The translations under genes were made by a program, and so were the position numbers. Shown here piece by piece: positions 13,193-29,788 of a stretch of DNA of 64,000 nt. The notes below the pieces were generated by a model. It had not been told where the DNA came from. It searched no databases and saw only the letters and a program-made list of their open reading frames with translations. Numbering within the stretch: the first letter of the stretch is position 1; each line of letters begins with the position of its first letter. The stretch comes from Microbacterium murale. GTDB lineage: Bacteria > Actinomycetota > Actinomycetes > Actinomycetales > Microbacteriaceae. The stretch covers positions 124,001 through 188,000 of the forward strand of contig NZ_BMCM01000002.1 of the NCBI RefSeq assembly GCF_014635185.1, in the 5' to 3' direction.

Positions 13193-13593
13193 TGGTCGCC
13201 GGTCTCGCCCTCATCGGATGTTCGTTCAACTGCCTCCGAAGCGGCCTTCGACTCTAGTACGCGTAGGCGCTGCTCGGTGAACGCCGCGTGCTCACTGAGA
13301 TCGCGCATCCGTGACTCGATACGGGTCAACTCCGCCCCATATTGGAGCGTCACGACGAACAAAAGTCCGATCGCGACAAAGAACACGAGGTTTGTCGCAA
13401 CCGAGATTCCGAGCAACGTCGAGGCCCACGTGAGCACCTGCGGAAAGACAGCTATGACGAGTGCGAGGACACCGCCGAAGAACCACCACACCGCATGACG
13501 TTCACGGAGCGTGCCTTTGCGCATCAGTTCGACGATCGCGACGAGAACCAATAAGGCGGCTACGATGCCGAAAGCGTAAGTCACGCCGTTCAT
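13189..13593 (-). CDS. DUF2304 small membrane protein
   Basis: This 134-residue protein starts MNGVTYAFGIVAALLVLVAI and has three hydrophobic segments (about residues 4-22, 33-55 and 66-84) with RHAVWWFFGG between the first two, followed by a charged coiled-coil tail LTRIESRMRDLSEHAAFTEQRLR. DUF2304 genes usually accompany dolichyl-phosphate-mannose-synthase-like GT2 genes, as here. The start at 13593 is chosen because it overlaps the GT2 stop by ATGA and has AAAGGA upstream; a longer frame to 13650 exists. It may help anchor or regulate the polyprenyl-phosphate-sugar synthase. Function experimentally unknown. Confidence 0.78.
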   Translation of the reverse strand: MNGVTYAFGIVAALLVLVAIVELMRKGTLRERHAVWWFFGGVLALVIAVFPQVLTWASTLLGISVATNLVFFVAIGLLFVVTLQYGAELTRIESRMRDLSEHAAFTEQRLRVLESKAASEAVERTSDEGETGDQ

Positions 13594-14363: not shown

Positions 14364-16285
14364 GCCGTGATCCGCCAGAGTGAGACCGTACCTTCTTGCA
14401 CGACCAACTCGAATCCGTCCTGTCCGGCGAAATCGGTCATGCCTGGCATTTGATACCGCCCAGGACCTTGCTCACCGATACCGAAGTCGAGTACGTACTC
14501 CGGGTCGTCGTACGCAGCGAGGGCTTCGCAGACCTGAGGTTCCTCAGCGACATCCCTGAGATCAGCTGCGAGGATGGTCCAGGCTCCGCTCGTCGGCGGT
14601 GACCACGTTCGGGGATAGACGTCGAGTCCGCTAAGGAAATAGCCGAACGCCGTGCCCGTCGACGGGTTGCCGATGATACGAGCATCAGCATCTACCAATT
14701 CATCCAAAGACTCGAGCAGGGCTCGCTCATCCGGATTCAGATAGGCGTCCGCCATGGCGAGATATCGCGACTCCCGGTCGTATGTGCCCTCGAGAACGGC
14801 GGGCATCGCCACAGGGCGTAGCAACACGAGAACGATCATGAAGACCGCCGTTCCCCCCAACGCCAGCAGACGCGCGGCCGACGTGCTCGGCGAGCGATGC
14901 ACCAAGCGCGCAATCGCGTGTGCGATCCCGTCGACGCCGATCGCCGCGAGTGGGATCACGACGATCGGCGCGAGCGCGGCGATGCGATAGGGATCTGCAT
15001 ACCAAGCGCCGAGGATCTCGGCGCGGATGAACGGGTTCCCGATCGCTGCGACCATGACGTACAACAACGAGATCCCGAGCCACGCGACAGCGAACCATCG
15101 CAGCCTGCCGTGACGCAGCGCAATCACGAGTCCGATGATCATCAGCACGCTGATCCCGAATGCGAAAGGGACGAGCACATGCCCGTTGAGGAGGACGTCG
15201 AAGGCGACTTCGAGCTTGCCGCGGAACGGTGGCCAGTGTGACCCGCTCGTGCCGTTGGCAAGGAAAAGCCACGTTGCGATGAGAGCAAGCCAAGCGATCA
15301 CGCCCAACGCGGCAGCCCGCGCGGGGCCGATCATCGCCGCCCTGTCAACAAGCCGGAAGGTCAGCCACGTCACGAGGATCGCCGCCCACGGGAGGATCGC
15401 CGCGGGCTGCGAAAGAAGCAGCGCCCCCATCGTCACGAGTATGAGAAGCGCACCACGAACTACCGCCTGCCAGGGCTTTGCACCGACGCTCCAGCGCGGC
15501 AACGACATGACCAGCGCGACACCTGCCGGGATGAGCGCGATGGACAGCGCATTCGGGAACAGCACGCCCCATTGGAACATCAGTAATGGAAACGTCTGCA
15601 GGGCGCTGGAAAGAACTGCAGCGTATCCGGCCACACTGTCTGACCCGGTAAGGGTTCGGGCGAGCCAGGCGATGCCAAGCGGCCAGATGAACGCGCCTAT
15701 CACGACAGACACGATGTTCGCAGTCACCGGAATCTCAGCCCCAGTGATCATCACGATCAACGACACCACGCCATGCCATGCAGCGGGATAGAAGCTCTGT
15801 CCTCCGATAACGGCGTTGACGTGCATCGAGGATGCGTCCGAGGTCTCGAGGATGAATCGGATCGCGTTCATGTGGAACACGGCGTCGTTCGTCTGAGAGA
15901 TTCCGGACGGGTCCGAGATATAGCCTGCGAGTCGCCAGATTGCGATCACGATGCCCAGGGCGAGGGCGACGGGGATAATCCATCGACGGCCGGTCGTTGC
16001 CGACGACGACCATGGAATCCTGTGGCCGAGTGCCCAACTGATCGCCCAGGAGACGGCGATGAGGAGGAGCACAGCGATTCCCCAGCTCAGCGGCGACCAT
16101 CCGATACCGACTGCGCCGAATGCCACCGCGATCACCGCTGTGGCGGCCACTGTGAACAGCGGTGCGGTCGCGAACAGCGCGAGCCCACGCAGCCCCGCGC
16201 CGAACATCGCGACGGTCCCAGGGACGAAGACGACGAGCAACGACGCCAGCAGAATCGGCGTCTGCCCCAGCCAATCCAGGATCAC
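14351..16285 (-). CDS. DUF6541-type polytopic membrane protein, candidate GT-C glycosyltransferase
   Basis: This 644-residue protein is almost entirely hydrophobic in its first 480 residues, with about 12-14 predicted membrane helices beginning WLGQTPILLASLLVVFVPGT. An extracellular-type C-terminal domain (about residues 500-644) contains NPDERALLESLDELVDADARIIGNPSTGTAFGY. DUF6541 proteins resemble GT-C membrane transferases; QTNDAVFHMNAIRFI in the first large loop contains an Asp that could play the catalytic role. It sits between the ABC ATPase (ATGA overlap) and the polyprenyl-phosphate-sugar synthase, which supports use of a lipid-linked sugar donor. The catalytic role is inference. Confidence 0.75.
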   Translation of the reverse strand: MILDWLGQTPILLASLLVVFVPGTVAMFGAGLRGLALFATAPLFTVAATAVIAVAFGAVGIGWSPLSWGIAVLLLIAVSWAISWALGHRIPWSSSATTGRRWIIPVALALGIVIAIWRLAGYISDPSGISQTNDAVFHMNAIRFILETSDASSMHVNAVIGGQSFYPAAWHGVVSLIVMITGAEIPVTANIVSVVIGAFIWPLGIAWLARTLTGSDSVAGYAAVLSSALQTFPLLMFQWGVLFPNALSIALIPAGVALVMSLPRWSVGAKPWQAVVRGALLILVTMGALLLSQPAAILPWAAILVTWLTFRLVDRAAMIGPARAAALGVIAWLALIATWLFLANGTSGSHWPPFRGKLEVAFDVLLNGHVLVPFAFGISVLMIIGLVIALRHGRLRWFAVAWLGISLLYVMVAAIGNPFIRAEILGAWYADPYRIAALAPIVVIPLAAIGVDGIAHAIARLVHRSPSTSAARLLALGGTAVFMIVLVLLRPVAMPAVLEGTYDRESRYLAMADAYLNPDERALLESLDELVDADARIIGNPSTGTAFGYFLSGLDVYPRTWSPPTSGAWTILAADLRDVAEEPQVCEALAAYDDPEYVLDFGIGEQGPGRYQMPGMTDFAGQDGFELVVQEGTVSLWRITACAQ

Positions 16286-17019
16286 TTGTCCACCAGAGCG
16301 ATCGCACCTTCGATCTCACCGTCGTAGATGACCTCGCCTTTGTTGATCACCACGCCCCTGGAGCACAGTTCCCGAACCATCTCCATGTCATGGCTCACGA
16401 CGACGAGCGTCTTGCCCCGTGCGATGAGTTCTTCGAACTTGAGGCGGCACTTCTCACGGAACGGCGCGTCGCCGACCGAAAGGATCTCGTCGACGAGCAG
16501 CACGTCAAGTTCAACGTGAATGGCCACCGAGAAGGCAAGACGCATGAACATACCCGACGAATAGTGCTTGACCTCTTGGTCGATGAACTGTTCGATCTCG
16601 CTGAACGCCACGATCTCGTCGTACCGCGCTTCGATCTCATGTCTCTTCATACCGAGTATCGCAGCATTGAGAAACACGTTCTCGCGGCCCGAGAGTTCGG
16701 GATGGAACCCGGCGCCGACTTCTATGAGTCCAGCGACACGTCCGCGAGTAAGGACCTCCCCCTCATCAGGTTCCATCACACCGGAGACGAGCTTGAGCAG
16801 CGTGGACTTGCCCGATCCGTTCAGGCCGAGGACCGCGACGGACTCCCCTTCGCCGATGACCAGATCCACACCTTTGAGTGCCTCGAACTGGCTCGTGAGC
16901 TGGCGCCGTTTGATCCAGGAGACGACGGTGTCCTTCAGCGAGAACGCGTGATTGAGTGTGAATCGCTTCTTCACACCGTCGATGATGATGCTCGGCTTGA
17001 TCGCCGCCTGATCGCTCAT
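16282..17019 (-). CDS. ABC-2 polysaccharide exporter ATPase (Wzt/TagH-like)
   Basis: This 245-residue ATPase has Walker A GLNGSGKST, the polysaccharide-exporter variant signature HYSSGMFMRLAFSVAI, Walker B VLLVDEILSVGD and VVSHDMEMV. RGRVAGLIEVGAGFHPELSGRENVFLNAAI is a block specific to O-antigen and teichoic-acid exporters. It ends soon after the ATPase core, so there is no C-terminal carbohydrate-binding module like that of O9a Wzt. The start at 17019 is set by the ATGA overlap with the permease stop; a longer frame to 17115 reads into the permease gene. With the permease it would export the finished or lipid-linked glycan. Confidence 0.9.
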   Translation of the reverse strand: MSDQAAIKPSIIIDGVKKRFTLNHAFSLKDTVVSWIKRRQLTSQFEALKGVDLVIGEGESVAVLGLNGSGKSTLLKLVSGVMEPDEGEVLTRGRVAGLIEVGAGFHPELSGRENVFLNAAILGMKRHEIEARYDEIVAFSEIEQFIDQEVKHYSSGMFMRLAFSVAIHVELDVLLVDEILSVGDAPFREKCRLKFEELIARGKTLVVVSHDMEMVRELCSRGVVINKGEVIYDGEIEGAIALVDK

Positions 17020-17966
17020 AGGTCTTGTGCGAACCTTCCTTCGAGGCGACGGAAAATCAACTGTCCCAGAAGCAGCGTGCCGAGTGCGATCAGGAACGTC
17101 CAGAGCGTGTTCCATGCCAGTCCCGGCGGGATTGCCATCATCTGATCGCCGCCGTAGCCAGCGGCGGACACCAGACCCTCAGTAGCGGGTCTCCAGAATG
17201 CATAGTGGAAGAGCTCGACACCGTGCGTGATCGGGTTCAGCAGATACACCTCGACCAGCCACTGGGGCCACTGCAGTCGGTCGACAACGGCTTCCTGCAC
17301 CATCGTCCAGGAGTAGAGCACGGGAGACGCCCATGTGGCGAGGAGCAACATCAGCTCGACGATGTTCTCCGCGTCGCGGTAACGAACGTTGATCGCCCCG
17401 AAGAACAACCCGACTCCGAGCGAGAAGAGCATCACGATCACCATCGCGGCGAAGATCGCCAGCACGCCGAAGATTGAGACGTGTGTGATCCATCCCATCA
17501 GCAGGCACACGAGCAGCAGCAGTCCGACCTGCGGCAGGAAGTGCACGAACGAGACGATGACCGCGGATACGGCGAACAGCTGCCTCGGCAGGAACACCTT
17601 TCGCACCAAGGGTGCATTGCCCACGATCGACGTCGTGGCGTTCTTGAATCCCTCGGAGAACAGATTGATGACGACGATGCCGGAGAAGAGGTACACCGCG
17701 TAGTTCGGAACGTCGCGGTCGAGGTTCATGAAGACGCCGAGAACGATCCAGAACACCAAGAACTGCGCCGCCGGCCGGACGTATGACCATGTCCACCCCA
17801 ACACGGAGTTGCGGTAGCGAGTCGTCACACCGGTGCGGACGAGCAGGTTCAGCAGATATCGCCAGCGCACGACATCAATCAGCCCGCGGCTCTTACCAGG
17901 GGTGTCGAAGTCAGAACGCGGGACAGTAGCGAAAAGATCTCGGGTGTCAGTCACGGGCCCACTCAC
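17016..17966 (-). CDS. ABC-2 polysaccharide exporter permease (Wzm/TagG-like)
   Basis: This 316-residue permease has six membrane helices. VVRWRYLLNLLVRTGVTTRYRNSVLGWTWSYVRP is the amphipathic gate-helix region of Wzm/TagG proteins, and LLATWASPVLYSW and LNPITHGVELFHYAFW are later family markers. The GTG start at 17966 heads the operon that runs to 11996; an in-frame GTG four codons later (17954) is an alternative. It partners the ATPase encoded just downstream. The polymer exported is not readable from sequence, but nearby genes offer legionaminic acid, rhamnose and a diacetamido sugar. Confidence 0.9.
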   Translation of the reverse strand: MSGPVTDTRDLFATVPRSDFDTPGKSRGLIDVVRWRYLLNLLVRTGVTTRYRNSVLGWTWSYVRPAAQFLVFWIVLGVFMNLDRDVPNYAVYLFSGIVVINLFSEGFKNATTSIVGNAPLVRKVFLPRQLFAVSAVIVSFVHFLPQVGLLLLVCLLMGWITHVSIFGVLAIFAAMVIVMLFSLGVGLFFGAINVRYRDAENIVELMLLLATWASPVLYSWTMVQEAVVDRLQWPQWLVEVYLLNPITHGVELFHYAFWRPATEGLVSAAGYGGDQMMAIPPGLAWNTLWTFLIALGTLLLGQLIFRRLEGRFAQDL

Positions 17967-18001
17967 TCGGCGACAGCGGCACAGGCCGCCTCGAATTCAG
18001 T

Positions 18002-18007: not shown

Positions 18008-18056
18008 CGGTACGGATCCTGACGCCTGACTTCGCTGGCTGAAGCCGCCGCAGCGT

Positions 18057-19508
18057 TCACGAGGTTGACAGACTGAGACGGCCCGCCAGCCAGGCACGAT
18101 ATCCCTCGACCGCGTCAGGCCTCCAGATATACGGATCGGTGGCAGCGCTCGTCGACGATGAATGCTCTGTTCCAGCGATCCGTTCAGCAACTTCCGATGC
18201 CGTCTGGACACGAGGACCGAAGGTGTCGCCGATGATGCTTGCCGCGAATGCGTTCTCGCGCGCGACGACCTGGCACCCGAAGGCGACCGCCTCGAACAGT
18301 ACGGTGCTGGCCACGCCGACGACCACACGCGCCTCCGCGAGCGACTCGTACACGTCCGACGCACGGTCGATCGACACGCGGTCATCTTGAACGATGAGCG
18401 GATAACGACTTTCGACGGCCCCGCGTTCCGCGGGATGCGGTCGGAACACGATGTTCCAGTCAGCGTCGACGGCTGCGCGAAGATCCATCACGAAGGCGTC
18501 TGTCGCTTCGGGCTCAGCCCTTGAAGATATGACAAGGATCTGACGCGGCCTGTTCGCCGGAGCAGACCTCACGCGATTCTCGAGATGTGGTTTGCCGATC
18601 GCCGTCACGGGAACAGGCATACGCACCGATTCGGACCAGAAGTCACCGAATGTGAGGACCTCATCTGGGAGTCCCCTCAGCAACGACGGATGCTTGAACA
18701 CCCTTCCGTAGTTGTACGCCGCATGCGATGGACCGATCCATCCGTGCTGAGGTTCCGCGACATATGCTCCGGCATCCTTGAACACCCCGACGGTCTCGCC
18801 GTTGTAGGTGTACGAGGCGGTATCCATGATCACAACTCGAGGCTTGACCCGTCCCAGGACATGGCGGAGCTCGGCCAGTTCGTACGGTCGATGCGCTTCG
18901 GCGCGCATCACCCGCGACCTGATTCCGGCGATCTGATCGTCAGAGACTCCAAGCCGCTGGGCGAAAGCCTTCATCAGACGGTCGATGGCCTTCACCGTTT
19001 CCGGTGGCGTCGTGTACCCGCGCGCCCACAACCGGGATCGTGCGGTTCCCCCCTCCATGCTCAGTGTGGGTGTGAAGGCAGGGCGGCCTATCGGTGAAGG
19101 CAGCGGGCGCCGCTGGACGATGGTCGCATTGCCAGACGTTTCGGCGAAGTCGTCGACCAACCAGTTTCGCGCCCGACCGTCGCTCGTACTCAGGGTGCCC
19201 CCGCCGACGTAGAACATCACGTCATGCCGGCGTGCGAACTGCCGCGCGTCCCAACGGTTCGGCAGAAACGCCTTCGCGAGGCGCTTCGCCTCCTTCCAAC
19301 GCGTCCAGTCATCGGTCTTCACCGCCACACTCCCCGTCGTTTCCTCGGAAAGCGCCCAAGCTATCTGCATTCGAACCTGAGCCCAGAACGGCACCGTGGA
19401 TCCAGGCAGGACCTCAAGCAACTCGTCCGGGGCAGCATCCTCGAGATCAAGCAGCGACTGCATGGATCTGGTCGTCACCACCGACGGTTTCCATCGTGGT
19501 TCCGTCAC
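18057..19508 (-). CDS. Capsule-type GT-B transferase, candidate legionaminic acid transferase
   Basis: This protein of 483 residues shows no standard GT4 motif. The C-terminal half resembles the surface-polysaccharide transferases of the CDP-glycerol / polysialyltransferase type: the NIVFRPHPAER block contains the HP motif those families use for the nucleotide donor, and a second block reads ARVVVGVASTVLFEAVAFGCQVVA. It is the last gene of the leg operon, next to the CMP-sugar synthetase. That makes it the best candidate for transferring legionaminic acid from the CMP donor. GTG 19508 overlaps the synthetase stop (GTGA) with GGGCGGA upstream; ATG 19535 would add 9 residues. The role is inference from context. 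Confidence 0.7.
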   Translation of the reverse strand: MTEPRWKPSVVTTRSMQSLLDLEDAAPDELLEVLPGSTVPFWAQVRMQIAWALSEETTGSVAVKTDDWTRWKEAKRLAKAFLPNRWDARQFARRHDVMFYVGGGTLSTSDGRARNWLVDDFAETSGNATIVQRRPLPSPIGRPAFTPTLSMEGGTARSRLWARGYTTPPETVKAIDRLMKAFAQRLGVSDDQIAGIRSRVMRAEAHRPYELAELRHVLGRVKPRVVIMDTASYTYNGETVGVFKDAGAYVAEPQHGWIGPSHAAYNYGRVFKHPSLLRGLPDEVLTFGDFWSESVRMPVPVTAIGKPHLENRVRSAPANRPRQILVISSRAEPEATDAFVMDLRAAVDADWNIVFRPHPAERGAVESRYPLIVQDDRVSIDRASDVYESLAEARVVVGVASTVLFEAVAFGCQVVARENAFAASIIGDTFGPRVQTASEVAERIAGTEHSSSTSAATDPYIWRPDAVEGYRAWLAGRLSLSTS

Positions 19509-20203
19509 AGGTCCGCCCGCTGATTCATCAGCCATTCCACAACCCGGAAGTCGAACTCACTGTCGACATCGATCGACCGGTCTGCCGGCATCTCGTACAG
19601 AATCGTGGACGAGAAAAAGACCACTTGTTCTTCGAGCAACGCTTGACGTCGCCATACGTAGATCGAGCCATTCATGTCGAAGCAGCGTGGTGCATCTTGC
19701 CGTCGTAAGACGGCGTCGTCCGGTGCTTTACTCACCGCGACCGTGCCGTCTGGCTGTTCTTCAACGAGGTTGAAGTAGGGATTTCGGCGAGCCTCTGCTC
19801 CGGTGATGAGCGAGTCGACATCAGCGTCCTCGAACATGCGTACTGCAATCCGGATGTCGTCAACGGTGCGCAGCGGGCTCGTCGCATCGAGATCGACACA
19901 CACCTCGTACCGAGCACCGGTTCGTTCCTCGGTCGAACGTACGGCATGCGCGATCGCCGGTACCTTCCCCGCTGTGTCCGTCGCCATCTCTGGCGGACGC
20001 CGTACTACCCCGGTGGCACCGAACGAGGGTGCCAGAGCAAGGATGTCTTCGGAATCGCTTGACACGACGACTTCGTCGAATAGCCCCGACGCAACTGCCT
20101 GCGCCACCGAGTGACCGAACAGCGGCCGGCCTGCGACGACCCGCAGGTTCTTTCCCGGCACACCCTTCGAACCGGCTCGCACCGTGATCGTGCAGATCCT
20201 CAT
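19505..20203 (-). CDS. legF: CMP-nonulosonic acid (legionaminic acid) cytidylyltransferase
   Basis: This 232-residue protein has the CMP-sialate synthetase fold: MRICTITVRAGSKGVPGKNL (the P-loop-like RxGSKG motif), VVVSSDSEDILALA, DLDATSPLRTVDDI and DRSIDVDSEFDFRVVEWLM with the two metal-binding aspartates. It activates the nonulosonic acid with CTP. ATG 20203 overlaps the upstream nucleotidyltransferase stop (ATGA); a longer frame to 20269 is rejected because it lacks homology-like features. Legionaminic rather than sialic acid is inferred from the whole operon, especially the PtmE-like and LegB/LegC genes. Confidence 0.86.
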   Translation of the reverse strand: MRICTITVRAGSKGVPGKNLRVVAGRPLFGHSVAQAVASGLFDEVVVSSDSEDILALAPSFGATGVVRRPPEMATDTAGKVPAIAHAVRSTEERTGARYEVCVDLDATSPLRTVDDIRIAVRMFEDADVDSLITGAEARRNPYFNLVEEQPDGTVAVSKAPDDAVLRRQDAPRCFDMNGSIYVWRRQALLEEQVVFFSSTILYEMPADRSIDVDSEFDFRVVEWLMNQRADL

Positions 20204-21246
20204 CGCCGACTCCGTTCCCACGCCTGACGCGCGCGCTCGAGATCCTCCGGGCGTCCTACGTCGATCCACTCCTCGTGAATCTCGAACGCCCCCACCTTTC
20301 GGCCGTCATCCATGAGCCGCGCCAGCAGCGTCGGCATGTCGCAGTACTCGTCTGGCGCGAGCAGATCAAGCGCGCGCGGGTCCAGGACGTAGATGCCCGC
20401 GCTCACCAGCTCGCTGTGATACGGCTTCTCAGCGAGCGCAGTGACGATGTCACCCTCCCGCCGGATCACCCCGTACGGGATCTCGAATCCGTACTCCCGT
20501 GCACCGATGGTCGCGGACGCGGCGGCCTCTGTGTGGAACGCGAGCATTCTTCGAAGATCCACCATTGTGAGCAGATCCGAGTTCATCACCACGAAGGGTT
20601 CAGCGATCGCGTCAAGAAGCTGCGCCAGTGCACCGGCTGTACCCAGCGGTGCGGGCTCATGGAGGTACGTGATCTCCAGGCCGCGCGAGCTCCCGTCACC
20701 GAGGTGCTCCTCGATGAGGTGACCGAGGTGATTCACAGACACGTGGATCCGACGGAACCCCTGATCGTGCAGCCGGCCGAGAATGATATCGATCATCGGC
20801 ACGTCGCCGAGGGGCACAAGCGGCTTGGGGATGTCCTTGGTGATCGGATAGAGCCTCTGCCCTCGTCCTCCGGCCATCAGCACCACAGGAGTGTTCAGTG
20901 GGGTGGCAATGTGCGCCAGTTCGCCGACCACGTCGACCATTCGGCCGTCGCCGTCCACGACCGCGACCACGCGGATGCCGCGGAGCGCCTTCAGAGCATC
21001 CACATCCTCCTGGCTCGTTGTCGGAGAAACCGAAGCAGGGTGGCGATTCATCACCGTGTCCACGCGCGCATCCAAAGATGTTCCCGCCAACAATCCTCGC
21101 CGGATGTCGCCATCGCTGACAGCGCCCACGAGCCGCCCGTCCGCGTCCTCAACGAAGACCACCTGAACAGCACCGCGATCGAGTTGCATGAGCGCGGCGC
21201 GAATACTCGTCTCCGGCTCGACGACGAGAATGCCTCTGTCAATCAT
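20200..21246 (-). CDS. ptmE: CBS-domain sugar-1-phosphate nucleotidyltransferase (PtmE-like)
   Basis: This 348-residue protein has two CBS domains in its first 115 residues (GAVQVVFVEDADGRLVGAVSDGDIRRGL is the first) and then a nucleotidyltransferase domain opening with PVVLMAGGRGQRLYPITKDIPKPL. Further motifs are APLGTAGALAQL and FVVMNSDLLTMVD. The combination of a CBS pair and a sugar nucleotidyltransferase is the architecture of Campylobacter PtmE, which makes the GDP-glucosamine used for legionaminic acid. Its place in this operon supports the same role. It overlaps the acetyltransferase by 8 bases and LegF by 4. The GTP preference is inferred, not visible. Confidence 0.84.
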   Translation of the reverse strand: MIDRGILVVEPETSIRAALMQLDRGAVQVVFVEDADGRLVGAVSDGDIRRGLLAGTSLDARVDTVMNRHPASVSPTTSQEDVDALKALRGIRVVAVVDGDGRMVDVVGELAHIATPLNTPVVLMAGGRGQRLYPITKDIPKPLVPLGDVPMIDIILGRLHDQGFRRIHVSVNHLGHLIEEHLGDGSSRGLEITYLHEPAPLGTAGALAQLLDAIAEPFVVMNSDLLTMVDLRRMLAFHTEAAASATIGAREYGFEIPYGVIRREGDIVTALAEKPYHSELVSAGIYVLDPRALDLLAPDEYCDMPTLLARLMDDGRKVGAFEIHEEWIDVGRPEDLERARQAWERSRR

Positions 21247-21886
21247 GCTCTCTCGCCCTCAACTCCTGGAACGGCCGTGCGGGTACTCCCACGACGATGG
21301 CATCTGCGGGCACCGAGTGGGTGACGACCGCGCCCGCGCCGACGACACTCCCCGACCCTACCGTCAGTCCTTGGAGGACCATTGCTCCCATTCCGATGTG
21401 GGCGCTCGCCTCGATCACAACATCCCCGGCCAGGAGGGCGCCGGGAGCGACATGGGCGTGCTCGCCTATCACCGTGTCGTGTTCGACGATCGCGCCCGAA
21501 TTGATCAGCGCACCCGTTCCGATCTGCGCACCCGCGTTGATGACGGCGCCCGCCATCACCTGCACACCGGCAGGCACGGACACAGAAGGATCGACGAATG
21601 CACGCGGGTGCACGATCGTTACGACGGTGAACCCTCGTGAGGTCGCTGCCAAGTGCAGTCGACGGCGCGCCGCCGTGGATGAGACGGATCCCATGGCGTT
21701 GACGATGTCGACCTCGCGCGGGTCGAGTACGTCGAGAAACTCATCACCACCAAGATGAGCAAGCCCAGAGAGTCGCGCCGAAGGTTCGGGGGCGAGGTAA
21801 CCGTACGCGCTTCTGCCTGACATCGCGAGCGCCGCGAGCACCGAATGCGCGTGCCCTCCTGCGCCGAGAAGTACGAGATCAGCCAT
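21239..21886 (-). CDS. legH: NeuD/PglD-like sugar N-acetyltransferase (LegH role)
   Basis: This 215-residue protein has an N-terminal Rossmann-like PglD domain (MADLVLLGAGGHAHSVLAAL) and a C-terminal hexapeptide beta-helix: the catalytic-type His lies in GAIVEHDTVIGEHAHVAPGA. PglD-like enzymes acetylate a 4-amino sugar nucleotide with acetyl-CoA, the step between LegC and LegG. ATG 21886 is chosen because it overlaps the LegI stop by 8 bases; the frame to 22057 is unsupported. The protein could alternatively O-acetylate the finished nonulosonic acid as NeuD does, but this operon has no other 4-N-acetyltransferase. Confidence 0.8.
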   Translation of the reverse strand: MADLVLLGAGGHAHSVLAALAMSGRSAYGYLAPEPSARLSGLAHLGGDEFLDVLDPREVDIVNAMGSVSSTAARRRLHLAATSRGFTVVTIVHPRAFVDPSVSVPAGVQVMAGAVINAGAQIGTGALINSGAIVEHDTVIGEHAHVAPGALLAGDVVIEASAHIGMGAMVLQGLTVGSGSVVGAGAVVTHSVPADAIVVGVPARPFQELRAREHD

Positions 21887-22973
21887 CGATGAGCTCACCA
21901 CGCCGGTAGTCACGGGACGCAGGCGCACCCACCACATCCCAGTAGTCGAACGAGGTACGCCCACTTGCCGGGCGGAAGCACGCGACGTCGACGTCAGCGA
22001 CGATCGCACCCTCTTTGATATCGGTGGTCGCCACCAGGCTACGTCGGACAACCGCACGGTTGCCTTCCTCCACCGGCTGACATCTCTTCTCGGTTGACCC
22101 CAGCATCACCGGCACGCGACGGAGGTCGGCGACGTAGTCTCGCAAGCCGTCTGGGTCGAGGGACGCCGCATGATCGGGGCCCTCGGCCCGCACGTCGAAG
22201 GTGAAGTGCTTTTCGACGACCGTGGCACCGAGCCCGACGGCAAGCACCGACCCGAGCGACCCGAGCGAATGGTCGGAGTAGCCGACCTGATGCCCGAAGG
22301 TCGTGGCGATCGTCTGCATCGCGCGTAGGTTCAGATGCTCGTCGGCAGCGGGGTACTCGGTCGTGCAGTGAAGGATCGTGACATGCTGCGCGAACGCGAC
22401 TTCGTCATTGCGACGCTGCCATGCGTTCTCCAGAACGTCATCCGTGAGCCGTACGGCGTCAAGCTGCCCCCGCGATTGCAACAGCCCCGCAGCGATGAAG
22501 CGCAGCGCACGCTCAATCTCGGCCATCTCAGCCATCCCAGTGGACAAGATGACAGGCAGCCCGGTCCGACCGGCTGCGACCAGAAGCGGCGCGAAGGTCA
22601 GGTCGCCGGATGCAATCTTGACCTTGGGGATCCCCAGCTCTGTGACGAGGAAGTCGAGGCCCGCGATGTCGAATGCTGTCGAGAGGAACTCGATCCCGCG
22701 AGACTCACAGCGATCTCGAAGGCGTCGGAATTCTGCATGGCTCAGCTCGAGTTGGCGGAGCAGGTCATGCTGCGAACGACGATCATCATCGGACGTGCGC
22801 TGGTAGGCGGCCAGCTCGGCGCTCTCAAGCGCGAGGCCGTCTGCCGAGAACGTCTGAAACTTCACCGCATCGGCACCGGCGGACGCGGCGAGGTCTACGA
22901 GCTCCTCTGCCGTGGTGACGGAGCCGTTGTGATTCACTCCGGCTTCAGCGATCACGAAAACGTGTTCGGTCAT
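21879..22973 (-). CDS. legI: Nonulosonic acid synthase (legionaminic acid synthase, NeuB family)
   Basis: This 364-residue protein begins MTEHVFVIAEAGVNHNGSVT, the NeuB-family signature, followed by a TIM-barrel with AVKFQTFSADGL, FLSTAFDIAGLDFL, KIASGDLTFAPLL, VILSTGMAEMAEI and GYSDHSLGSL. A C-terminal SAF/antifreeze-like domain (about residues 300-364) contains RRSLVATTDIKEGAIV. It condenses phosphoenolpyruvate with the 6-deoxy-diacetamido-mannose released by LegG. The ATG overlaps the LegG stop (ATGA). The family is certain; the legionaminic product is inferred from operon content. Confidence 0.92.
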   Translation of the reverse strand: MTEHVFVIAEAGVNHNGSVTTAEELVDLAASAGADAVKFQTFSADGLALESAELAAYQRTSDDDRRSQHDLLRQLELSHAEFRRLRDRCESRGIEFLSTAFDIAGLDFLVTELGIPKVKIASGDLTFAPLLVAAGRTGLPVILSTGMAEMAEIERALRFIAAGLLQSRGQLDAVRLTDDVLENAWQRRNDEVAFAQHVTILHCTTEYPAADEHLNLRAMQTIATTFGHQVGYSDHSLGSLGSVLAVGLGATVVEKHFTFDVRAEGPDHAASLDPDGLRDYVADLRRVPVMLGSTEKRCQPVEEGNRAVVRRSLVATTDIKEGAIVADVDVACFRPASGRTSFDYWDVVGAPASRDYRRGELIDG

Positions 22974-24133
22974 GATCCCGATCCCTCCTCGAGGTCGTGG
23001 AATTTCTTGCGCGGCGGCGTAGGAATCGTCGCGTCGCGTAGCGTCGCAGCAGTGCGGGCAGCGAATCCGGGATGACCAAAGATGTCGATGTCCGACTGAT
23101 CCTGCACCCCCCGGATCGCATCTCTCAGGGCGGACGCGATGGCAGTGCGGTTTGCGTCCGGCGTGGCGACGCTGGACGCGAGCGGCCGCCCCTTCTGCCG
23201 ATCCCCGACCAGTACGGACGGAGTACCGAGTACTGGTGCCTCCAGCACGGTACTGGATGAGTTCCCGGCCACGACGGTCGCCGCTGACATGGCACTCAGA
23301 TACCCGAGCTGACCGAATGATTCGACGAAGTCCACACGGTCCGTGTTGGACTCTACGAACGCCGCGATGCGCTGACGGACATCCGCGGTGCCGATGTCGG
23401 AGTTCGATCCCGTGACTACCACATGCAGTCCGTCCACCTCGAGGAGAGCAACGAGGAGCTCTTCCAGCACGACCTCAGGAGCATCGACGTCCATCACAGC
23501 AGGGTGGAACGTCACGAGCGCGGTCGGCTGCGAAAGCCGGACGCCGAAGCGCCGCTCCACCTCCTCCCGAGGAAGAAGTTCAAGCGCGCTGAGCGCGTCG
23601 ACGATCGGTGCCCCGTGGAAATACACCCGGTCCGGCTGCTCCCCCATTTGGATCACGCGTCGACGATGGTCTTCGGTCGACGTGAAATGGAGGTACGCCA
23701 TCTTGGTGATCGAGTGGCGCAGCGCGTCATCCATCGCGCCCTCGGTGAGTTCTCCACCGTGGATGTGCGCCAGCGGAACCGAAACGACCGTCGCGGCAGC
23801 TGCCGCCGCGAATGCCTCGAGACGGTCACCCAGGACGACAAGGATGTCCGGCGCAAGGTCGGTCAGCACACGCGCGTAACGCGGCAGTGCGCTGCCGACG
23901 TCTTCGGCCGCGCCCAACCGGCTGTCGTCTGCTGACCAGATCGGCACGGATGCAGCGACCCTGAGTCCGTCATCTTCGATCTCCGACTCAGTGCGCCCGA
24001 AAGCGTCGCTGAGGTGTGTACCGGTGACGATGAGTTGCAGCTCGAGCGCTTCGTCCGCCTCGATCTCCTGCAGCAGCCCTCTCAGGAGGCCGTAGTCAGC
24101 GCGGGTACCGGTGAGAACAGCGATCTTCCTCAT
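22970..24133 (-). CDS. legG: Hydrolysing nucleotide-sugar 2-epimerase (NeuC/LegG)
   Basis: This 387-residue protein starts MRKIAVLTGTRADYGLLRGL, the NeuC/LegG opening, and has VVLGDRLEAFAAAAAATVVSVPLAHIHGGELTEGAMDD, VTFHPAVMD, VVVTGSNSDIG and VAGNSSSTVLEAPVLGTPSV. It inverts C2 and releases the free sugar from its nucleotide, giving the substrate of LegI. The start overlaps the LegC stop (ATGA); the frame to 24166 is not supported. In this operon its substrate is expected to be GDP- or UDP-linked 2,4-diacetamido-2,4,6-trideoxyglucose. Confidence 0.9.
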   Translation of the reverse strand: MRKIAVLTGTRADYGLLRGLLQEIEADEALELQLIVTGTHLSDAFGRTESEIEDDGLRVAASVPIWSADDSRLGAAEDVGSALPRYARVLTDLAPDILVVLGDRLEAFAAAAAATVVSVPLAHIHGGELTEGAMDDALRHSITKMAYLHFTSTEDHRRRVIQMGEQPDRVYFHGAPIVDALSALELLPREEVERRFGVRLSQPTALVTFHPAVMDVDAPEVVLEELLVALLEVDGLHVVVTGSNSDIGTADVRQRIAAFVESNTDRVDFVESFGQLGYLSAMSAATVVAGNSSSTVLEAPVLGTPSVLVGDRQKGRPLASSVATPDANRTAIASALRDAIRGVQDQSDIDIFGHPGFAARTAATLRDATIPTPPRKKFHDLEEGSGS

Positions 24134-25287
24134 GCCGCCGCCAGGGCCGGCGAGCTCGGAATGCACACCACGCTGGCTTGAAGAGCGTCAGCCACCGGAG
24201 TGGGGGCATGCGGCAGATGGCGATATGGCGCCTGCCGATGGAGAAGATTCCAGAACGGGCGACATTGCAGTCCCGCATCGTTCGTGGCCTCGAGCAGCTC
24301 ATCGCGCCTTTCGACTCCGCCGGTCACGCGCACTGCACAGAGCCAATAGTTGCTTTCGGTGCCGTCCGGCTCGGAGAGAAAATGCACCCCGGACAAGTCC
24401 TCAAAAGCATCCCGATAGCGATCGGCGAGCCGTCGCTTGGCTGCAAGGAACTCGGGAAGTCGTTTCAACTGCGCAACTCCGAGTGCGGCGTTGAGATTCG
24501 GCATTCGGTAGTTGTAGGCCACCTCATCATGCTCGAACTCCCACCGGTGCGGCAGCTTGGCTGTCGTGGTGACATGCCGCGCGCGGCGCGCGAGTTCTTC
24601 ATCGCTCGTGAGGATCATTCCCCCGCCACCGGTGGTGAGGATCTTGTTGCCGTTGAAGCTGAGAATTCCGAGCGTCCCGAACGTTCCTGTGTGCGAAGTG
24701 CCGGCACGGCTGCCGAGCGACTCGGCGGCATCCTCCACCACCGGAATTCCGTAGGCGTCGGCAAGCGCGACCAATTCGACAATGCGCATCGGGTGGCCCA
24801 GCGTGTGCATCGGGACGATTGCTCCGATTCGACGTCCGGTGACGCCGTTGACAAGGCCCTCCGGCGTAGATCGCGCGGCGGCGAGCACCGCCTCCACAGC
24901 CTCGACCGAGAGACCGAGGGTCTCCTCATCGCTGTCCACGAAATACGGTTGCGCACCGGCGTGCGACACCGCGTTCGCAGTGGCGACGAACGACAGCGTC
25001 GGCACGATCACGTCGTCGCCCGCTCCTACTCCGGCAAGTTCCAGTGCCACCTGGAGCGCTGAAGTCCCGTTGGACACGGCGACACCGTACCCGGCGCCGG
25101 TGAGCTCCGCGATCGATTGCTCGAACTCTCCGACGAAACTTCCCACGCTCGACACGAAGGTGGAATCGAGGCACTCCCGCACCTTCTGCTTCTCGACATC
25201 GGTGATATCTGGGATATGCAGGCCGACGAACGAGTCCTCGCCGACCACCCCACGGATCGTGCGGACGAAGTCCTTGGCGTCACTCAT
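24130..25287 (-). CDS. legC: PLP-dependent 4-aminotransferase (LegC)
   Basis: This 385-residue DegT-family aminotransferase has FVGLHIPDITDVEKQKVREC near the start, VSNGTSALQVALELAGVGAGDDVIVPTLSFVATANAV, the PLP-contact EDAAESLGSRAG and the Schiff-base lysine in SFNGNKILTTGGGGM. The LHIP and GNKILTTGGGGM blocks are characteristic of the LegC/PseC-side branch of the family. It should aminate the 4-keto sugar produced by LegB. ATG 25287 overlaps the LegB stop (ATGA). The C-terminus PSSPALAAA is followed directly by the LegG start. Confidence 0.9.
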   Translation of the reverse strand: MSDAKDFVRTIRGVVGEDSFVGLHIPDITDVEKQKVRECLDSTFVSSVGSFVGEFEQSIAELTGAGYGVAVSNGTSALQVALELAGVGAGDDVIVPTLSFVATANAVSHAGAQPYFVDSDEETLGLSVEAVEAVLAAARSTPEGLVNGVTGRRIGAIVPMHTLGHPMRIVELVALADAYGIPVVEDAAESLGSRAGTSHTGTFGTLGILSFNGNKILTTGGGGMILTSDEELARRARHVTTTAKLPHRWEFEHDEVAYNYRMPNLNAALGVAQLKRLPEFLAAKRRLADRYRDAFEDLSGVHFLSEPDGTESNYWLCAVRVTGGVERRDELLEATNDAGLQCRPFWNLLHRQAPYRHLPHAPTPVADALQASVVCIPSSPALAAA

Positions 25288-26279
25288 ACGATGTAGGCGT
25301 CGGTGCGGTAACGAGCCAAGTTCGCCGGGTCGGTGAACCACTCGGCGGTCGCACGCAAACCCTCGCGGAATCCGTCGACACCGTCGTACCGCGGGCTCCA
25401 GCCAAGAACTTCCTGCGCCTTCGTGTTGTCGGAGTACAGTCGTTCTACCTCAGAGTTGGCGGGGCGCAATCGGGCCGGGTCCTCAGTCGCGGTGGCGTCG
25501 ATGCCCATTGCTTCCGCGATGAGTTCGAACGTCTGACCGATCGAGACTTCGAACCCGACGCCGAGGTTGATGACTTCACCTACTCCTGCCGTGCTCGTGA
25601 GCGCGGCAGTGAACCCGGACACTGTGTCGGGCACGTAAGTGAAATCACGCGTGGGAGTGATCGCGCCGAGCTGAATCTCCCGCTTCCCGGCAGCGAGCTG
25701 GCTGATGATCGTCGGGATCACAGCGCGGGCGGACTGACGCGGCCCGAACGTGTTGAAGGGCCGAATCGTCACCGTGGGGAGCCCGAATGACGCATGATAC
25801 GAGTTGACCATCTGATCGGCGGCAATCTTCGAGGCGGAGTACGGCGACTGACCCTGGAGCGGGTGCCCCTCATCCATCGGAACGTAACGCGCCGTCCCAT
25901 ACACCTCGCTGGTGGAGGTGTGGATGAAGCGGCTGACGTCCGCGGCACGAGCGGCGTTGAGCAGGTTGAGCGTGCCCTGGATGTTCGTCTGCACGTATAG
26001 ATCCGGAGCGGCGTACGAATACGGAATCGCGATCAACGCTGCCAGATGGAGCACCGCATCGCGGTCTCGGACTGCCGACATCATGAGCGCCGGGTCCCGC
26101 ACGTCGCCCGGAACGAACTCGATCTGAGCCGCGACCTCCGGATCGACGCCGTCGAGCCACCCGCGCGAATCGAACGAGTTGTATAGGACGAGCGCTCGGA
26201 CTTCGTGTCCATCCCGGACGAGCTGCTCCGCGAGGTGTGATCCGATGAATCCGTCAGCTCCTGTGAGCAGTACCTTCAT
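25284..26279 (-). CDS. legB: NAD-dependent 4,6-dehydratase (LegB)
   Basis: This 331-residue extended SDR has MKVLLTGADGFIGSHLAEQL, LHLAALIAIPYSYAAPDLYV, the catalytic YSASK motif (SPYSASKIAADQMV) and TIRPFNTFGPRQSARAVIP, the LegB-type pattern. It converts the NDP-GlcNAc to the 4-keto-6-deoxy sugar in the first committed step. It is the first gene of the eight-gene leg operon. ATG 26279 is preceded by TAGACT at a 7-base distance and only a weak purine run, so the mRNA is probably leaderless. The frame upstream to 26369 is part of the neighbouring 3' region and is rejected. Confidence 0.9.
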   Translation of the reverse strand: MKVLLTGADGFIGSHLAEQLVRDGHEVRALVLYNSFDSRGWLDGVDPEVAAQIEFVPGDVRDPALMMSAVRDRDAVLHLAALIAIPYSYAAPDLYVQTNIQGTLNLLNAARAADVSRFIHTSTSEVYGTARYVPMDEGHPLQGQSPYSASKIAADQMVNSYHASFGLPTVTIRPFNTFGPRQSARAVIPTIISQLAAGKREIQLGAITPTRDFTYVPDTVSGFTAALTSTAGVGEVINLGVGFEVSIGQTFELIAEAMGIDATATEDPARLRPANSEVERLYSDNTKAQEVLGWSPRYDGVDGFREGLRATAEWFTDPANLARYRTDAYIV

Positions 26280-26286
26280 ACCCGCC

Positions 26287-26292: not shown

Positions 26293-26308
26293 TCCGAGCG
26301 TCCTTTCC

Positions 26309-28780
26309 CTATTTTTTGTACGAGAGCGTGCCATTCACGAACTTCTGAGAGCACGTACCGGCCTGGCAAGTTTCAGCGCTGGTCGGCCAACCCAACTCTC
26401 CTCGGATCCATCCGCGCGCGCTGTAGAGCGTCATCATCGAGGTCGACGAAGCGAATGTTCCGTACTTGGACGAGTGAATCCATCCGCCATCGAACGCCTG
26501 TCCGAAGCCGTCGCCGTTCGGATCTGTCACCGTCACTAGGGACGATGCCGCGTTCCCCAGCGGACCACCCGCGCCGCCGGCCGCGGTGTACACGTCGTAG
26601 ATTCGCCGATTCTCGTTTGTTAGATAAACCTTTATGCCGCCCGCCGCGCCTACTCGGATGGTGCCACCTGCGAACGCTTGGACACAATCACCGCTCGTGC
26701 ACTTCTCTACTCCAACCGGCCATCCGAGCGCACCGCGCAGCCAGCCGGCATCACTGTATGTCTCCATGATCGCCGTGGACGAGACGAATGTTCCCGTCGC
26801 CGATGAGTGAATCCACCCGCCGTCGAATCGCTGAGCATAACCGTTTCCGTTTGGATCGGTCACTGTCTGCAGTGCTGTTGCGGCGTGTCCGAGCGGACCA
26901 GCAGCGCCGCCAGCCTCGCTATAGACGCGCTGGATGGAAGCATTCTGGGAAGTCAGCATCACGACTGCCGGGGAGCCGACCTGGTATCGGATTGTTCCCC
27001 CCGAGAAGGCCTGCGCGCACTTCCCAGCGGAACATGTTTCAGCACCGACCGGCCAGCCAAGTGGTCCGCGCAACCAGCCTGCGGCACTGTAGGCCTTCAT
27101 GATCGCAGTCGACGAGGAGAACGTCCCCTGTTTCGATGAGTGAACCCAACCGCCGTCGAACTTCTGAGCGAGGCCGTTACCCTTCGGATCCGAGACTGCT
27201 GTCTCCGCGCCCGCCGGCCATCCGAGCGTCCCGCGGACCCAGCCTGCGGCGCTGTAGGCCGTCATGATCTGTGTCGAAGACGAGAAGGACCCCGACTCCG
27301 ACGAGTGGATCCACCCGCCATTGAACTTCTGGGCGACGCCGTTCCCATTCGGATCCGAGACGGCCGTCTCCGCACCCGTCGGCCATCCGAGCGTCCCGCG
27401 CAGCCAGCCCGCCGCGCTGTAGACGGACATGATGCGGCTGGACGAGGTGAAAGTGCCAGCCGCCGACGAGTGAATCCACCCACCGGCGAAGCTCTGCACA
27501 TCACCGTTCCCATTGGGGTCCACGATGTGCTGAACCGCGATCATCGCAGCACCCAGCCAACCTGTGACTCCGCCGGCATTCTGGTGCGTCGTGCGAATCG
27601 CCTGATTCAACTTCGTATTGTCCGACCCAGCAGTCGCAGTCGTGAGGGTGCCATTCGCAAACTTTTGCGTGCAGCCGAGGTCAGTGCACTTCTCTGCGGA
27701 CGTCGGCCATCCGAGGCGTCCACGCAGCCATCCAGCGGCGGAATACGCCGCCATAATCTGAGATGAGCTCGCGAAGGTACCGCGCGTGCTGGAGTGGATC
27801 CACCCACCAGTGAAGACTTGGATGTAGCCGTTTCCGTTCGGGTCAGTCACCCGCTGCGAATTGTGCAATGGGTAGCCCAACGGCCCTGAGGCACCGCCTG
27901 ACGCCTTGTAAGTAGCAAGAATCGCAGCGTTGGTGACAGTTGCCGCTGGTCCGGCCGCTCCACCCTTTTCGTACTGCAACACGCCATTCTCGAAGGGTTG
28001 CGAGCACGCGGTGCTGGTGCATTTCTCGGGGCCGGTAGGCCAGCCGAAGGCGCCGCGGACCCAGCCGACTTTGCTGTACGCCGTCATGATCGTATTCGAC
28101 GAAACGAAGGTACCGCGCGCCGAGGAGTGAATCCACCCCCCATCGAACTTCTGCGCGTATCCATCGCCGTTTGGATCGACGACGTTCGTGGTCGCGGTGA
28201 CGGCGTATCCGAGGAGTCCGGAGTTGCCGCCCTGGGCCGTGTACGCACTCTTGATCTTCGCGTTATCCACGGGTGGCACGACATACGCCTTCTGGCCCGT
28301 CTTATAACGGATTACCCCGCCTGCGAAGGTCTGCAGACACCCGAGCGTGTCGCACTTCTCCGCCCCCTTCGGCCATCCGAGCGTGCCTCGCAACCAGCCT
28401 GCACCGCTGTAGGCAGTCATGATCGTGCTGGAGGAAGCAAAGGCTCCCGCCGCGGACGAATGGATCCACCCCTTGTCGAACTTCTGGGTGATTCCGTTGC
28501 CGTTGGGGTCCGTCACGGCCTTCGGAGTGTCCGCCGGGTAACCGAGCTTGCCTGTAAGACCGCCCTGCGCCGCGTACTCCGTGTACACATCCCCGTAGAC
28601 AGTGACAGCGCCGAGAGCCCGCGTCCACGTGATCACGCCTTTCGCGTAGAACCATGTGCAGCGAGTCGTTGTAGCCGTGCATTTCGGTTCCGCTCCAGCT
28701 TTGCCGAGCACGCCGGACGCTCCGCCGAGTGCAACGTACTGCCGGTTGATCGTCCCGAGCGGGTCGATCGCCTGAGTCGA
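26309..28780 (-). repeat. DNA encoding tandem LGFP-type repeats
   Basis: The 3' three quarters of the gene is internally repetitive. Units of about 100 codons recur, each containing a DPNGNG-coding block, a GWIHSS-coding block and an LGWP-coding block. Eight copies of the first two motifs can be counted. One unit pair lacks the Cys-containing segment, giving two directly adjacent DPNGNG units (about 27150-27370). Such repeats can change copy number by recombination. Confidence 0.75.
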
Positions 28781-29653
28781 CCCGAACCAGTCCGTGAAGT
28801 AGTTGTAGAAGTTGCGGTTGCCGTAGCTCGAGCAGCTGTTGCCTTCGCCGTATCCGGCTTTCAGGGCAGCTGCGTTCGGCTGGTACGGCGTGTAGTAGTA
28901 GAGCGCCGCAGTCGCCTTGTTCGCGACATAGACGTTTCCTCGTCCGCACGAAGCGTTCGGGTGGTACAGAATGCCCCAGGTCTTACCCGGCGCGTACCAC
29001 TGGAACCACTTGCCCTCCATGTAGATCTGCATCTGGCGCGCTGCGCCGTAGATCTGGTGGAAGAAGCCGACGAAGTTCGGGTCGCACGGGGCAGTGTCCG
29101 GGCAGCCCTGCCCCAACGCGCTGTCGTAGCGCCACGAGCTCGGCCACGTGTGGCTGATGAGCCCCTGCTCCTTCTGGAGCATCACGATGAGCACCTGCGG
29201 ATTGATGTTGCACGACTGCGCCACCCGATAGATGATGCGCGCGGCGGACTCGTTCGCCGCGCCGGTGTACCCGCTGCAGTACGCATCGGCGGGACGATTC
29301 ACCGAGCTGATCTTGAAGTCTTTCAGACAGACATAACCCGATTGGCATCGCGAGACCTTGCCGTTGAAGAAGCTCTGGATCTGCGCCTCTGTCATGGTGC
29401 TCTTGTTGGTGAACACCGCATCGCTGATGATGTTTCCCGCGCTGAAGCCGGCGAGCGAAGTCTTGACGATTCCCGTCTGCGCGGGGTCGCCTGCGGTGCG
29501 CGCGAGGCTGGCGGTCGTGCTCTGCGAGGCGGATGCCGTGGCCACCGCCACCGGCGCGACAGTGCCGACCACGACAGCCGTCACAGCAACGAGGACGGTG
29601 AGGAATCGCGCGATGTTGAGCGCGTTTCGAGAGCGTGGGGCAGGTCGAGACAT
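26309..29653 (-). CDS. Secreted LGFP-repeat protein with N-terminal lysozyme-like domain
   Basis: This 1114-residue protein has a signal peptide (LTVLVAVTAVVVGTVAPVAV, cleavage near residue 42). Residues 60-290 form a domain with an acidic residue at Glu162 in VMLQKEQGLIS, the position of the catalytic Glu in several transglycosylase-like folds, plus paired cysteines. Residues 295-1114 are tandem LGFP-type repeats. Two kinds alternate: one with DPNGNG/DPNGDG and GWIHSS (eight copies), and one with LGWP followed by a C-x4-C pair (six canonical copies). No membrane anchor or sorting signal is present at the end (NGTLSYKK). The start is taken at ATG 29653 ahead of the signal peptide. It may bind or trim cell-wall glycan; enzymatic activity is unproven. 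Confidence 0.82.
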   Translation of the reverse strand: MSRPAPRSRNALNIARFLTVLVAVTAVVVGTVAPVAVATASASQSTTASLARTAGDPAQTGIVKTSLAGFSAGNIISDAVFTNKSTMTEAQIQSFFNGKVSRCQSGYVCLKDFKISSVNRPADAYCSGYTGAANESAARIIYRVAQSCNINPQVLIVMLQKEQGLISHTWPSSWRYDSALGQGCPDTAPCDPNFVGFFHQIYGAARQMQIYMEGKWFQWYAPGKTWGILYHPNASCGRGNVYVANKATAALYYYTPYQPNAAALKAGYGEGNSCSSYGNRNFYNYFTDWFGSTQAIDPLGTINRQYVALGGASGVLGKAGAEPKCTATTTRCTWFYAKGVITWTRALGAVTVYGDVYTEYAAQGGLTGKLGYPADTPKAVTDPNGNGITQKFDKGWIHSSAAGAFASSSTIMTAYSGAGWLRGTLGWPKGAEKCDTLGCLQTFAGGVIRYKTGQKAYVVPPVDNAKIKSAYTAQGGNSGLLGYAVTATTNVVDPNGDGYAQKFDGGWIHSSARGTFVSSNTIMTAYSKVGWVRGAFGWPTGPEKCTSTACSQPFENGVLQYEKGGAAGPAATVTNAAILATYKASGGASGPLGYPLHNSQRVTDPNGNGYIQVFTGGWIHSSTRGTFASSSQIMAAYSAAGWLRGRLGWPTSAEKCTDLGCTQKFANGTLTTATAGSDNTKLNQAIRTTHQNAGGVTGWLGAAMIAVQHIVDPNGNGDVQSFAGGWIHSSAAGTFTSSSRIMSVYSAAGWLRGTLGWPTGAETAVSDPNGNGVAQKFNGGWIHSSESGSFSSSTQIMTAYSAAGWVRGTLGWPAGAETAVSDPKGNGLAQKFDGGWVHSSKQGTFSSSTAIMKAYSAAGWLRGPLGWPVGAETCSAGKCAQAFSGGTIRYQVGSPAVVMLTSQNASIQRVYSEAGGAAGPLGHAATALQTVTDPNGNGYAQRFDGGWIHSSATGTFVSSTAIMETYSDAGWLRGALGWPVGVEKCTSGDCVQAFAGGTIRVGAAGGIKVYLTNENRRIYDVYTAAGGAGGPLGNAASSLVTVTDPNGDGFGQAFDGGWIHSSKYGTFASSTSMMTLYSARGWIRGELGWPTSAETCQAGTCSQKFVNGTLSYKK

Positions 29654-29788
29654 GTGACTAGTGTGGCGGAAGTTACGGGATGATGCCACTGCGACCAGAG
29701 AAACTGGAGAGAAACGCCGCGTGTCGCGCGGATTCACCGTCTCTCACCAGCTTCACGACTCGCGCGATCCATGTGCCACGATGGACTC

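Follow-up and report, generated by a model that had tools for sequence, protein, structure and literature searches.

We analysed a 64,000-nucleotide stretch of Microbacterium murale (contig NZ_BMCM01000002.1, positions 124,001 to 188,000; genome of 3.9 Mb in 18 contigs), hereafter the window, that contains a block of eight minus-strand open frames predicted to encode synthesis of the nonulosonic acid legionaminic acid (Leg). The frames, which run from 26279 to 18057, were confirmed at the coordinates of a first-pass annotation made from the sequence. Neighboring frames overlap by 4 bp at legB/legC, legC/legG, legG/legI, and ptmE/legF, by 8 bp at legI/legH and legH/ptmE, and by 31 bp between legF and the eighth gene, a candidate glycosyltransferase (GT). 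By family match, homologues of LegB, LegC, LegH, LegG, LegI, and LegF lie together in this cluster and make up the gene set of a CMP-legionaminic acid pathway. The block recurs with unchanged order and location in 13 other genomes of the genus, two of which are without legH and one of which (G589) has broken frames, so the arrangement is unlikely to be due to chance. The eight frames, their family matches, and these 13 genomes bear out the claim that this actinobacterium has a complete operon of Leg type, including a PtmE-type gene and a candidate transferase.

Table 1. Cassette genes, slot flanks, and adjacent genes in the window
Feature	Coordinates	Strand	Match
legB-like, NDP-GlcNAc 4,6-dehydratase	25284..26279	-	TIGR04180, 465.5 bits
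legC, PLP aminotransferase	24130..25287	-	TIGR04181, 494.5 bits
legG, hydrolysing 2-epimerase	22970..24133	-	TIGR03568, 371.6 bits
legI, nonulosonate synthase	21879..22973	-	TIGR03569, 397.4 bits; PF03102
legH, NeuD/PglD-type N-acetyltransferase	21239..21886	-	TIGR03570, 201.1 bits
ptmE-type sugar-1-phosphate nucleotidyltransferase, N-terminal CBS domain	20200..21246	-	PF00571 and PF00483
legF, CMP-nonulosonate synthetase	19505..20203	-	PF02348
Candidate nonulosonate transferase (GT), GT-B-like C-terminal half	18057..19535	-	tblastn match in 14/14 cassettes
wzm, ABC exporter permease, slot flank	17016..17966	-	best NCBIfam: galactan Wzm/RfbD, 52 bits
wzt, ABC exporter ATPase	16282..17019	-	best NCBIfam: galactan Wzt, 172.6 bits
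LGFP-repeat protein, other slot flank	26309..29737	-	PF08310, 15 stretches
DUF6541 protein, downstream of wzt	14351..16285	-	PF20176, 481.9 bits
GT2 glycosyltransferase	13590..14363	-	PF00535, 67.3 bits

LegC, LegG, and LegH score above the cut-offs of their NCBIfam models (420 bits for TIGR04181, 235.9 bits for TIGR03568 [NeuC/NnaA], and 160.8 bits for TIGR03570 [NeuD/PglB/VioB]; scores in Table 1). The best PDB sequence match of LegG is 5zlr, a GDP/UDP-N,N'-diacetylbacillosamine 2-epimerase (E 3e-73), and the enzyme is far closer to it than to the bifunctional UDP-GlcNAc 2-epimerase/ManNAc kinase 4zht (E 7e-37), which favors a Leg over a neuraminic acid (Neu) pathway. The PtmE-type protein combines one Pfam CBS domain with an NTP_transferase domain and shares 41% identity with its PtmE-type counterpart in a Campylobacterales metagenome-assembled genome (MAG; L097).

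Several observations weigh against this assignment. LegB falls 2% below the TIGR04180 cut-off of 475 bits (second-best family, 168.5 bits); the LegB proteins of two other genus members also lie under it (464.1 and 460.7 bits). We therefore call the window protein LegB-like and do not place it in TIGR04180. LegI lies 0.6% below the TIGR03569 (NeuB/NnaB) cut-off of 399.65 bits, with 231.3 bits on the PseI model. The nearest NCBIfam model of LegF is that of PseF (TIGR03584), where its 124.6 bits are well under the cut-off of 205.7; it meets Pfam CTP_transf_3 (PF02348), and by family it is a cytidylyltransferase and nothing narrower. A sigma-70 scan of 16000–30200 found no promoter-like site, although the consensus may not suit this organism, and gene overlap is the sole basis for assuming a single transcript. 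Separately, two PDB alignments of LegI (364 aa) have a gap that runs from approximately residues 154–162 to 197–199, which resembles an inserted segment.

The block occupies a defined slot. In all 14 genus genomes that carry it (the window and L062–L074), it lies between the LGFP-repeat gene and wzm/wzt; in the window, the LGFP-repeat gene ends 29 bp before legB, and its frame is broken or shortened in some of the 14 cassettes. The exporter proteins score under the cut-offs of the galactan Wzm/Wzt models (NF050109/NF050108; 52/380 and 172.6/400 bits), and the wzt open frame begins at 17115, the start at 17019 having been chosen. A search for the exporter permease (E ≤ 1e-110) in 247 genomes, a sample that covers part of the genus, returned 57 places in 56 genomes. 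All 57 loci were examined, and the slot holds a Leg block in 14, a pseudaminic acid (Pse) block in 2, and no block in 34, with 7 unclear (L196, L197, L201, L215, L218, L223, and L224). In 33 empty slots, the LGFP stop codon lies 44–113 bp before the estimated wzm start; in the 34th (L211), the LGFP frame is broken and LGFP matches extend up to ~125 bp from wzm. Gene content, family matches, gene order, and the slot with its three states are observed directly. Because the exporter loci divide in this way, the exporter looks like a core component and the nonulosonic acid like an optional and exchangeable decoration. The first-pass annotation, made from one sequence, could not have revealed this variation. 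By raw length, the LGFP open frame tends to be longer in nonulosonate-cassette loci than in empty loci.

A quick tree built from the joined exporter proteins requires at least 11 changes of slot state among the 50 classified loci. Shuffled states gave a mean of 14.4 changes and reached a value as low as that observed in 6 of 200 cases, so the clustering of states is only loose; strongly supported branches force at most three changes for Leg or for empty. The exporters of G001, with a Pse block, and G616 (L065), with a Leg block, share 93% identity. The simplest reading is a fixed slot whose modules move between species, presumably by recombination in the flanks.

The two Pse blocks, each ~5.5 kb long (L184:5487–10932 in G001 and L192:9752–15203 in G591), have the same layout. 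PseB (489.2 and 488.7 bits; cut-off 407.75) and PseI (456.3 and 456.9 bits; cut-off 340.25) exceed their thresholds, PseC (419.2 and 406 bits; cut-off 423.5) and PseG (153.3 and 133.6 bits; cut-off 153.55) fall short, and each block also has genes of GNAT and cytidylyltransferase type. Whereas pseB, pseC, pseI, and the cytidylyltransferase gene share one strand, the pseG-like and GNAT genes lie on the other, and no match to the window GT was found in either block. By their family matches, these are pseudaminic-acid cassettes.

For the Leg block, the gene set makes CMP-N,N'-diacetyllegionaminic acid the likeliest product. The predicted route would begin with activation of GlcNAc-1-phosphate by the PtmE-type enzyme, probably with GTP. 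LegB would then carry out 4,6-dehydration, LegC transamination at C4, and LegH N-acetylation, after which LegG would epimerize C2 and remove the nucleotide, LegI would condense the product with phosphoenolpyruvate, and LegF would form the CMP sugar. Every one of these activities is a prediction, and so are the use of GDP, the transfer step discussed below, and its acceptor. We consider it rather improbable that the block instead makes a different nonulosonic acid (a Leg epimer or one with another acyl group), or that it yields di-N-acetylbacillosamine as an end product alongside a distinct Neu branch. Sequence cannot tell stereochemistry or acyl group, and 5-N-formyl-Leg is described in Halorubrum (available text of PMC6137143); the gene overlaps and the LegC, LegG, and LegH family matches, on the other hand, fit a single Leg pathway. 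The loss of legH from 2 of the 14 cassettes, G022 (L063) and G488 (L064), also favors a different acid and counts against a uniform diacetylated product. In these two, legI overlaps ptmE directly by 4 and 8 bp, and the best LegH matches lie elsewhere in the genome at 40% and 38% identity; strains with such cassettes may N-substitute Leg differently or rely on an acetyltransferase encoded at a distance. In G589 (L074), legB, ptmE, and legF match partly or across two frames (ptmE in two frames) and the remaining genes are complete, a pattern in which sequencing error and decay are indistinguishable.

The first-pass annotation had taken the PtmE-type gene as an argument for the GDP route. A protein with CBS and nucleotidyltransferase parts is indeed encoded in the cluster, with a ptmE match in 14/14 genus cassettes, and we regard a GDP route as likely. 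A dedicated nucleotidyltransferase would be redundant where UDP-GlcNAc is available. The LGTAG motif of PtmE is common to mannose-1-phosphate guanylyltransferases among its PDB relatives, whereas three MurU proteins, which use UTP, have LET(A/G)GG. In addition, C. jejuni legB restored Leg partly or not at all in a B. subtilis spsM mutant, whose native enzyme SpsM works on UDP-GlcNAc (available text of PMC7439481). For context, a genome survey reports that 93 of 96 C. jejuni genomes have the GDP route, whereas 10 others have the UDP route (PMC7725333, available text). The argument for GDP use in the window is nevertheless one from homology. The residues compared fit GTP but would also allow UTP, and 8x7s, the PDB entry that PtmE matches best in sequence, carries the name UTP-glucose-1-phosphate uridylyltransferase; both points weigh against GDP. 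Residue E197 is present in 102/102 PtmE rows, and E likewise occurs in 3/3 MurU rows and in the aligned UTP enzyme 8x7s. Reading the nucleotide choice from a comparison of PtmE with MurU, RmlA, and PDB relatives was dropped, as the invariant E197 does not discriminate.

In the alternative, UDP-linked pathway, LegB would draw on the housekeeping pool of UDP-GlcNAc, and the PtmE-type enzyme would use UTP or serve a different purpose. We judge this unlikely, though the name of 8x7s speaks for it and UDP-route Leg synthesis is known in Legionella and B. subtilis (available parts of PMC6137143 and PMC7439481, respectively). In addition to the guanylyltransferase form of its LGTAG motif, the wide occurrence of PtmE-type genes beside LegC/LegG/LegI matches, in loci selected by PtmE, argues against it. 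Matches to LegC, LegG, and LegI together were found in 54 of 90 loci, and PtmE in 53 of those 54. The sole PtmE-free cluster of this kind (L172) has a dehydratase of the PseB/PglF/CapE kind that is weakly LegB-like. Among the 53 loci with PtmE, a LegB-type match was present in 39 (four also with a PseB-type match) and none was in view in 14 (one with a PseB-type match). A correlation of dehydratase type with PtmE presence was rejected as a test, since 80 of the 90 loci had been chosen by PtmE and it would depend on a single PtmE-free locus.

The eighth gene is likely to encode a nonulosonate transferase. Its product has no Pfam family match, but in two actinobacterial genomes (G381 and G125) distant relatives are encoded no more than 6 kb from genes of NeuB-like and CMP-transferase-like type. 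Two further relatives directly follow legF in a Microbacteriaceae MAG (L084), and one relative near nonulosonate genes weakly matches the polysialyltransferase family PF07388 (E 0.003, 17.6 bits; cut-off 23.3). Two findings count against this assignment: the independent neighborhood test comprises two loci, a third (G418) being uninformative on its 3.2-kb contig, and the structure model has a mean pLDDT (predicted local distance difference test score) of 51, with GT-B matches mostly from the C-terminal half. The donor class could not be read from so weak a model. Weak profile matches in L109 and L117 lie more than 6 kb from ptmE and were not counted as support, and no GT match was found in the plasmid records.

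Taken together, the block quite probably makes CMP-N,N'-diacetyllegionaminic acid that is attached to a wall polymer or capsule-like polymer prior to export, as an optional module in a fixed slot. The GT-B-like protein would move the sugar onto the polymer, and the adjoining Wzm/Wzt would export it. Of the earlier proposal, in which the acid joins rhamnose and a diacetamido sugar in a surface polymer, the polymer itself gains support from the adjacency to Wzm/Wzt; the proximity of rhamnose genes is a weaker argument, and the diacetamido-sugar genes score below their cut-offs. That the exporter carries the Leg sugar is suggested by neighborhood without being proved by it, which weighs on the other side. 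Decoration of flagellin or another protein in place of a polymer appears very improbable. Flagellin modification by nonulosonic acids is the well-characterized Gram-negative case and also occurs in clostridia (available text of PMC13317340), but the slot adjoins a polysaccharide-type exporter in 14/14 cassettes. PF01973 also matched in 0/6 genomes, a weak negative in that only archaeal controls matched and flagellar genes were not searched for. PF01973 was the family of flagellin Maf transferases but now bears the name MptE-like, which also weakens the negative.

In a phylum sample of 396 genomes, 24 have a PtmE match (E ≤ 1e-40), and in nine of these, including that of the window, the match covers both the CBS and nucleotidyltransferase parts. 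Eight of the 396 have a LegG match (E ≤ 1e-35). Four of these eight (G000, G261, G314, and G321) have a PtmE match with both parts, and G125 has a Leg-like cluster without PtmE. In the other three (G341, on a 4.2-kb contig; G148; and G060), LegG, LegI, and LegF matches were found and neither LegC nor PtmE in the stretches read. A collection-wide scan was evaluated for the best 80 named PtmE loci, which come from many phyla and include some short contigs, by using tblastn bit-score thresholds of 200 for legB, 150 for legC, 100 for legG and legI, 50 for legF, and 40 for legH. Near PtmE in these 80 loci, we found legG in 66, legI in 64, legF in 61, legC in 57, legH in 50, and legB in 48. Because Leg gene matches are this frequent, PtmE-type Leg clusters, as judged from homology, are a common kind across many phyla, and the window is a member. 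The PtmE–Leg linkage that the first-pass annotation compared with Campylobacter is thus real but, across the phyla of these 80 loci, no peculiarity of that genus.

L084, with a LegF match of only 28%, has the same order, legB-C-G-I-H-ptmE-legF. Frigoribacterium (L085) and Rhizobium sp. WL3 also have it, with one Gfo/Idh-type gene separating ptmE from legF. In a LegB tree, the window and its genus group with Frigoribacterium and another Microbacteriaceae MAG at an SH-aLRT (approximate likelihood-ratio test) support of 100. The PtmE match (E ≤ 1e-30) found in 15 of the 247 genus genomes accompanies a block in the slot in 14; the exception, G494, has a divergent Leg cluster (L075:8033–15769) outside the slot, near Bac_transf and DUF4012 genes. 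Its proteins are 58% (LegB), 39% (PtmE), and 33–45% (other Leg genes) identical to those of the window, and its LegB falls together with those of Nocardioides and Intrasporangium at a support of 91 (99 for a six-row set of actinobacteria). The approximately unbiased (AU) test rejects a single clade of all genus LegB including G494 (p-AU 3.8e-5) but does not reject a common clade for all actinobacterial LegB (p-AU 0.23). By these trees, the Leg clusters of the genus have two histories. G314 and L144, an Egibacteraceae MAG, have identical LegB proteins.

Two plasmid records stand apart. In L250 (Streptomyces californicus plasmid NZ_CP070247.1), a LegB-like gene (55%) lies beside a gene for a 237-aa sugar nucleotidyltransferase that matches only the non-CBS part of PtmE; a PelF-type gene is nearby and no other Leg match occurs in 21 kb, and this LegB may serve another sugar. 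L249 (NZ_CP154830.1) is a 2763-bp circular C. jejuni "plasmid" record with legB and a legC match, and it may be an assembly product.

Like the GDP-route CMP-Leg pathway of C. jejuni, the window unites matches to all seven kinds of enzyme in a single unit, with LegB 50% identical to the C. jejuni gene product annotated LegB and LegC 41%. It differs in adjoining an ABC polymer exporter, and its GDP use is a prediction. The eight genes include no PtmA/PtmF-type precursor genes. The plasmid cluster of Rhizobium sp. WL3 (NZ_CP042825.1) shares the order legB-C-G-I-H-nucleotidyltransferase-(Gfo/Idh)-legF and identities of 63% (LegB), 57% (LegF), and 51% (LegC); it also contains additional genes of Gfo/Idh and SDR type, and the window GT has no match in the 19 kb read. 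The Sps pathway of the B. subtilis spore crust is a Gram-positive Leg synthesis demonstrated by experiment, but it involves a different dehydratase, SpsM, UDP precursors, and a spore surface, and "PtmE" and "CBS" are absent from the available text (PMC7439481). Streptomyces teichulosonic acids (Kdn polymers) likewise place a nonulosonic acid in an actinobacterial wall polymer; their Kdn involves no diacetamido pathway, and the available text describes no cassette slot (PMC7831098).

Elsewhere in the window, a dehydrogenase, an aminotransferase, and a hexapeptide acetyltransferase at 9205–11962 are of the kinds expected for a UDP-diacetamido uronic acid, all under NCBIfam cut-offs. An open frame at 31632–33065 matches both RmlC and RmlD (a fusion; 80.5/155.75 and 215.7/224.05 bits, both under cut-offs) and is immediately preceded by rmlA and rmlB, both above cut-off. 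Beyond the LGFP gene, 34141–36015 encodes a DUF4012 protein, a family also present near the G494 Leg cluster.

Nonulosonic acids have been studied mostly as flagellar and capsular sugars of Gram-negative bacteria. The Leg pathway itself is already known, and the new part is its setting in an exchangeable slot of a Gram-positive polymer-export locus. Among the top titles and abstract beginnings of a literature search with subscription journals mostly outside its coverage, none dealt with legionaminic or pseudaminic acid in Microbacterium or Microbacteriaceae and, within the same limits, none pointed to such a slot. We tentatively suggest, as a possibility we hold with less than even confidence, that the slot works like a serotype switch for a Gram-positive wall polymer, where Leg, Pse, or nothing would be exchanged on a conserved exported polymer by flank recombination. 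Surface charge and phage or host recognition would then be altered, and the LGFP-repeat protein could be a reader or anchor of the polymer. Closely related exporters accompanied by Leg, Pse, or nothing constitute a natural experiment on the role of acidic sugars at the Gram-positive surface, and PtmE-type Leg clusters across phyla provide material for settling the choice between GDP and UDP.

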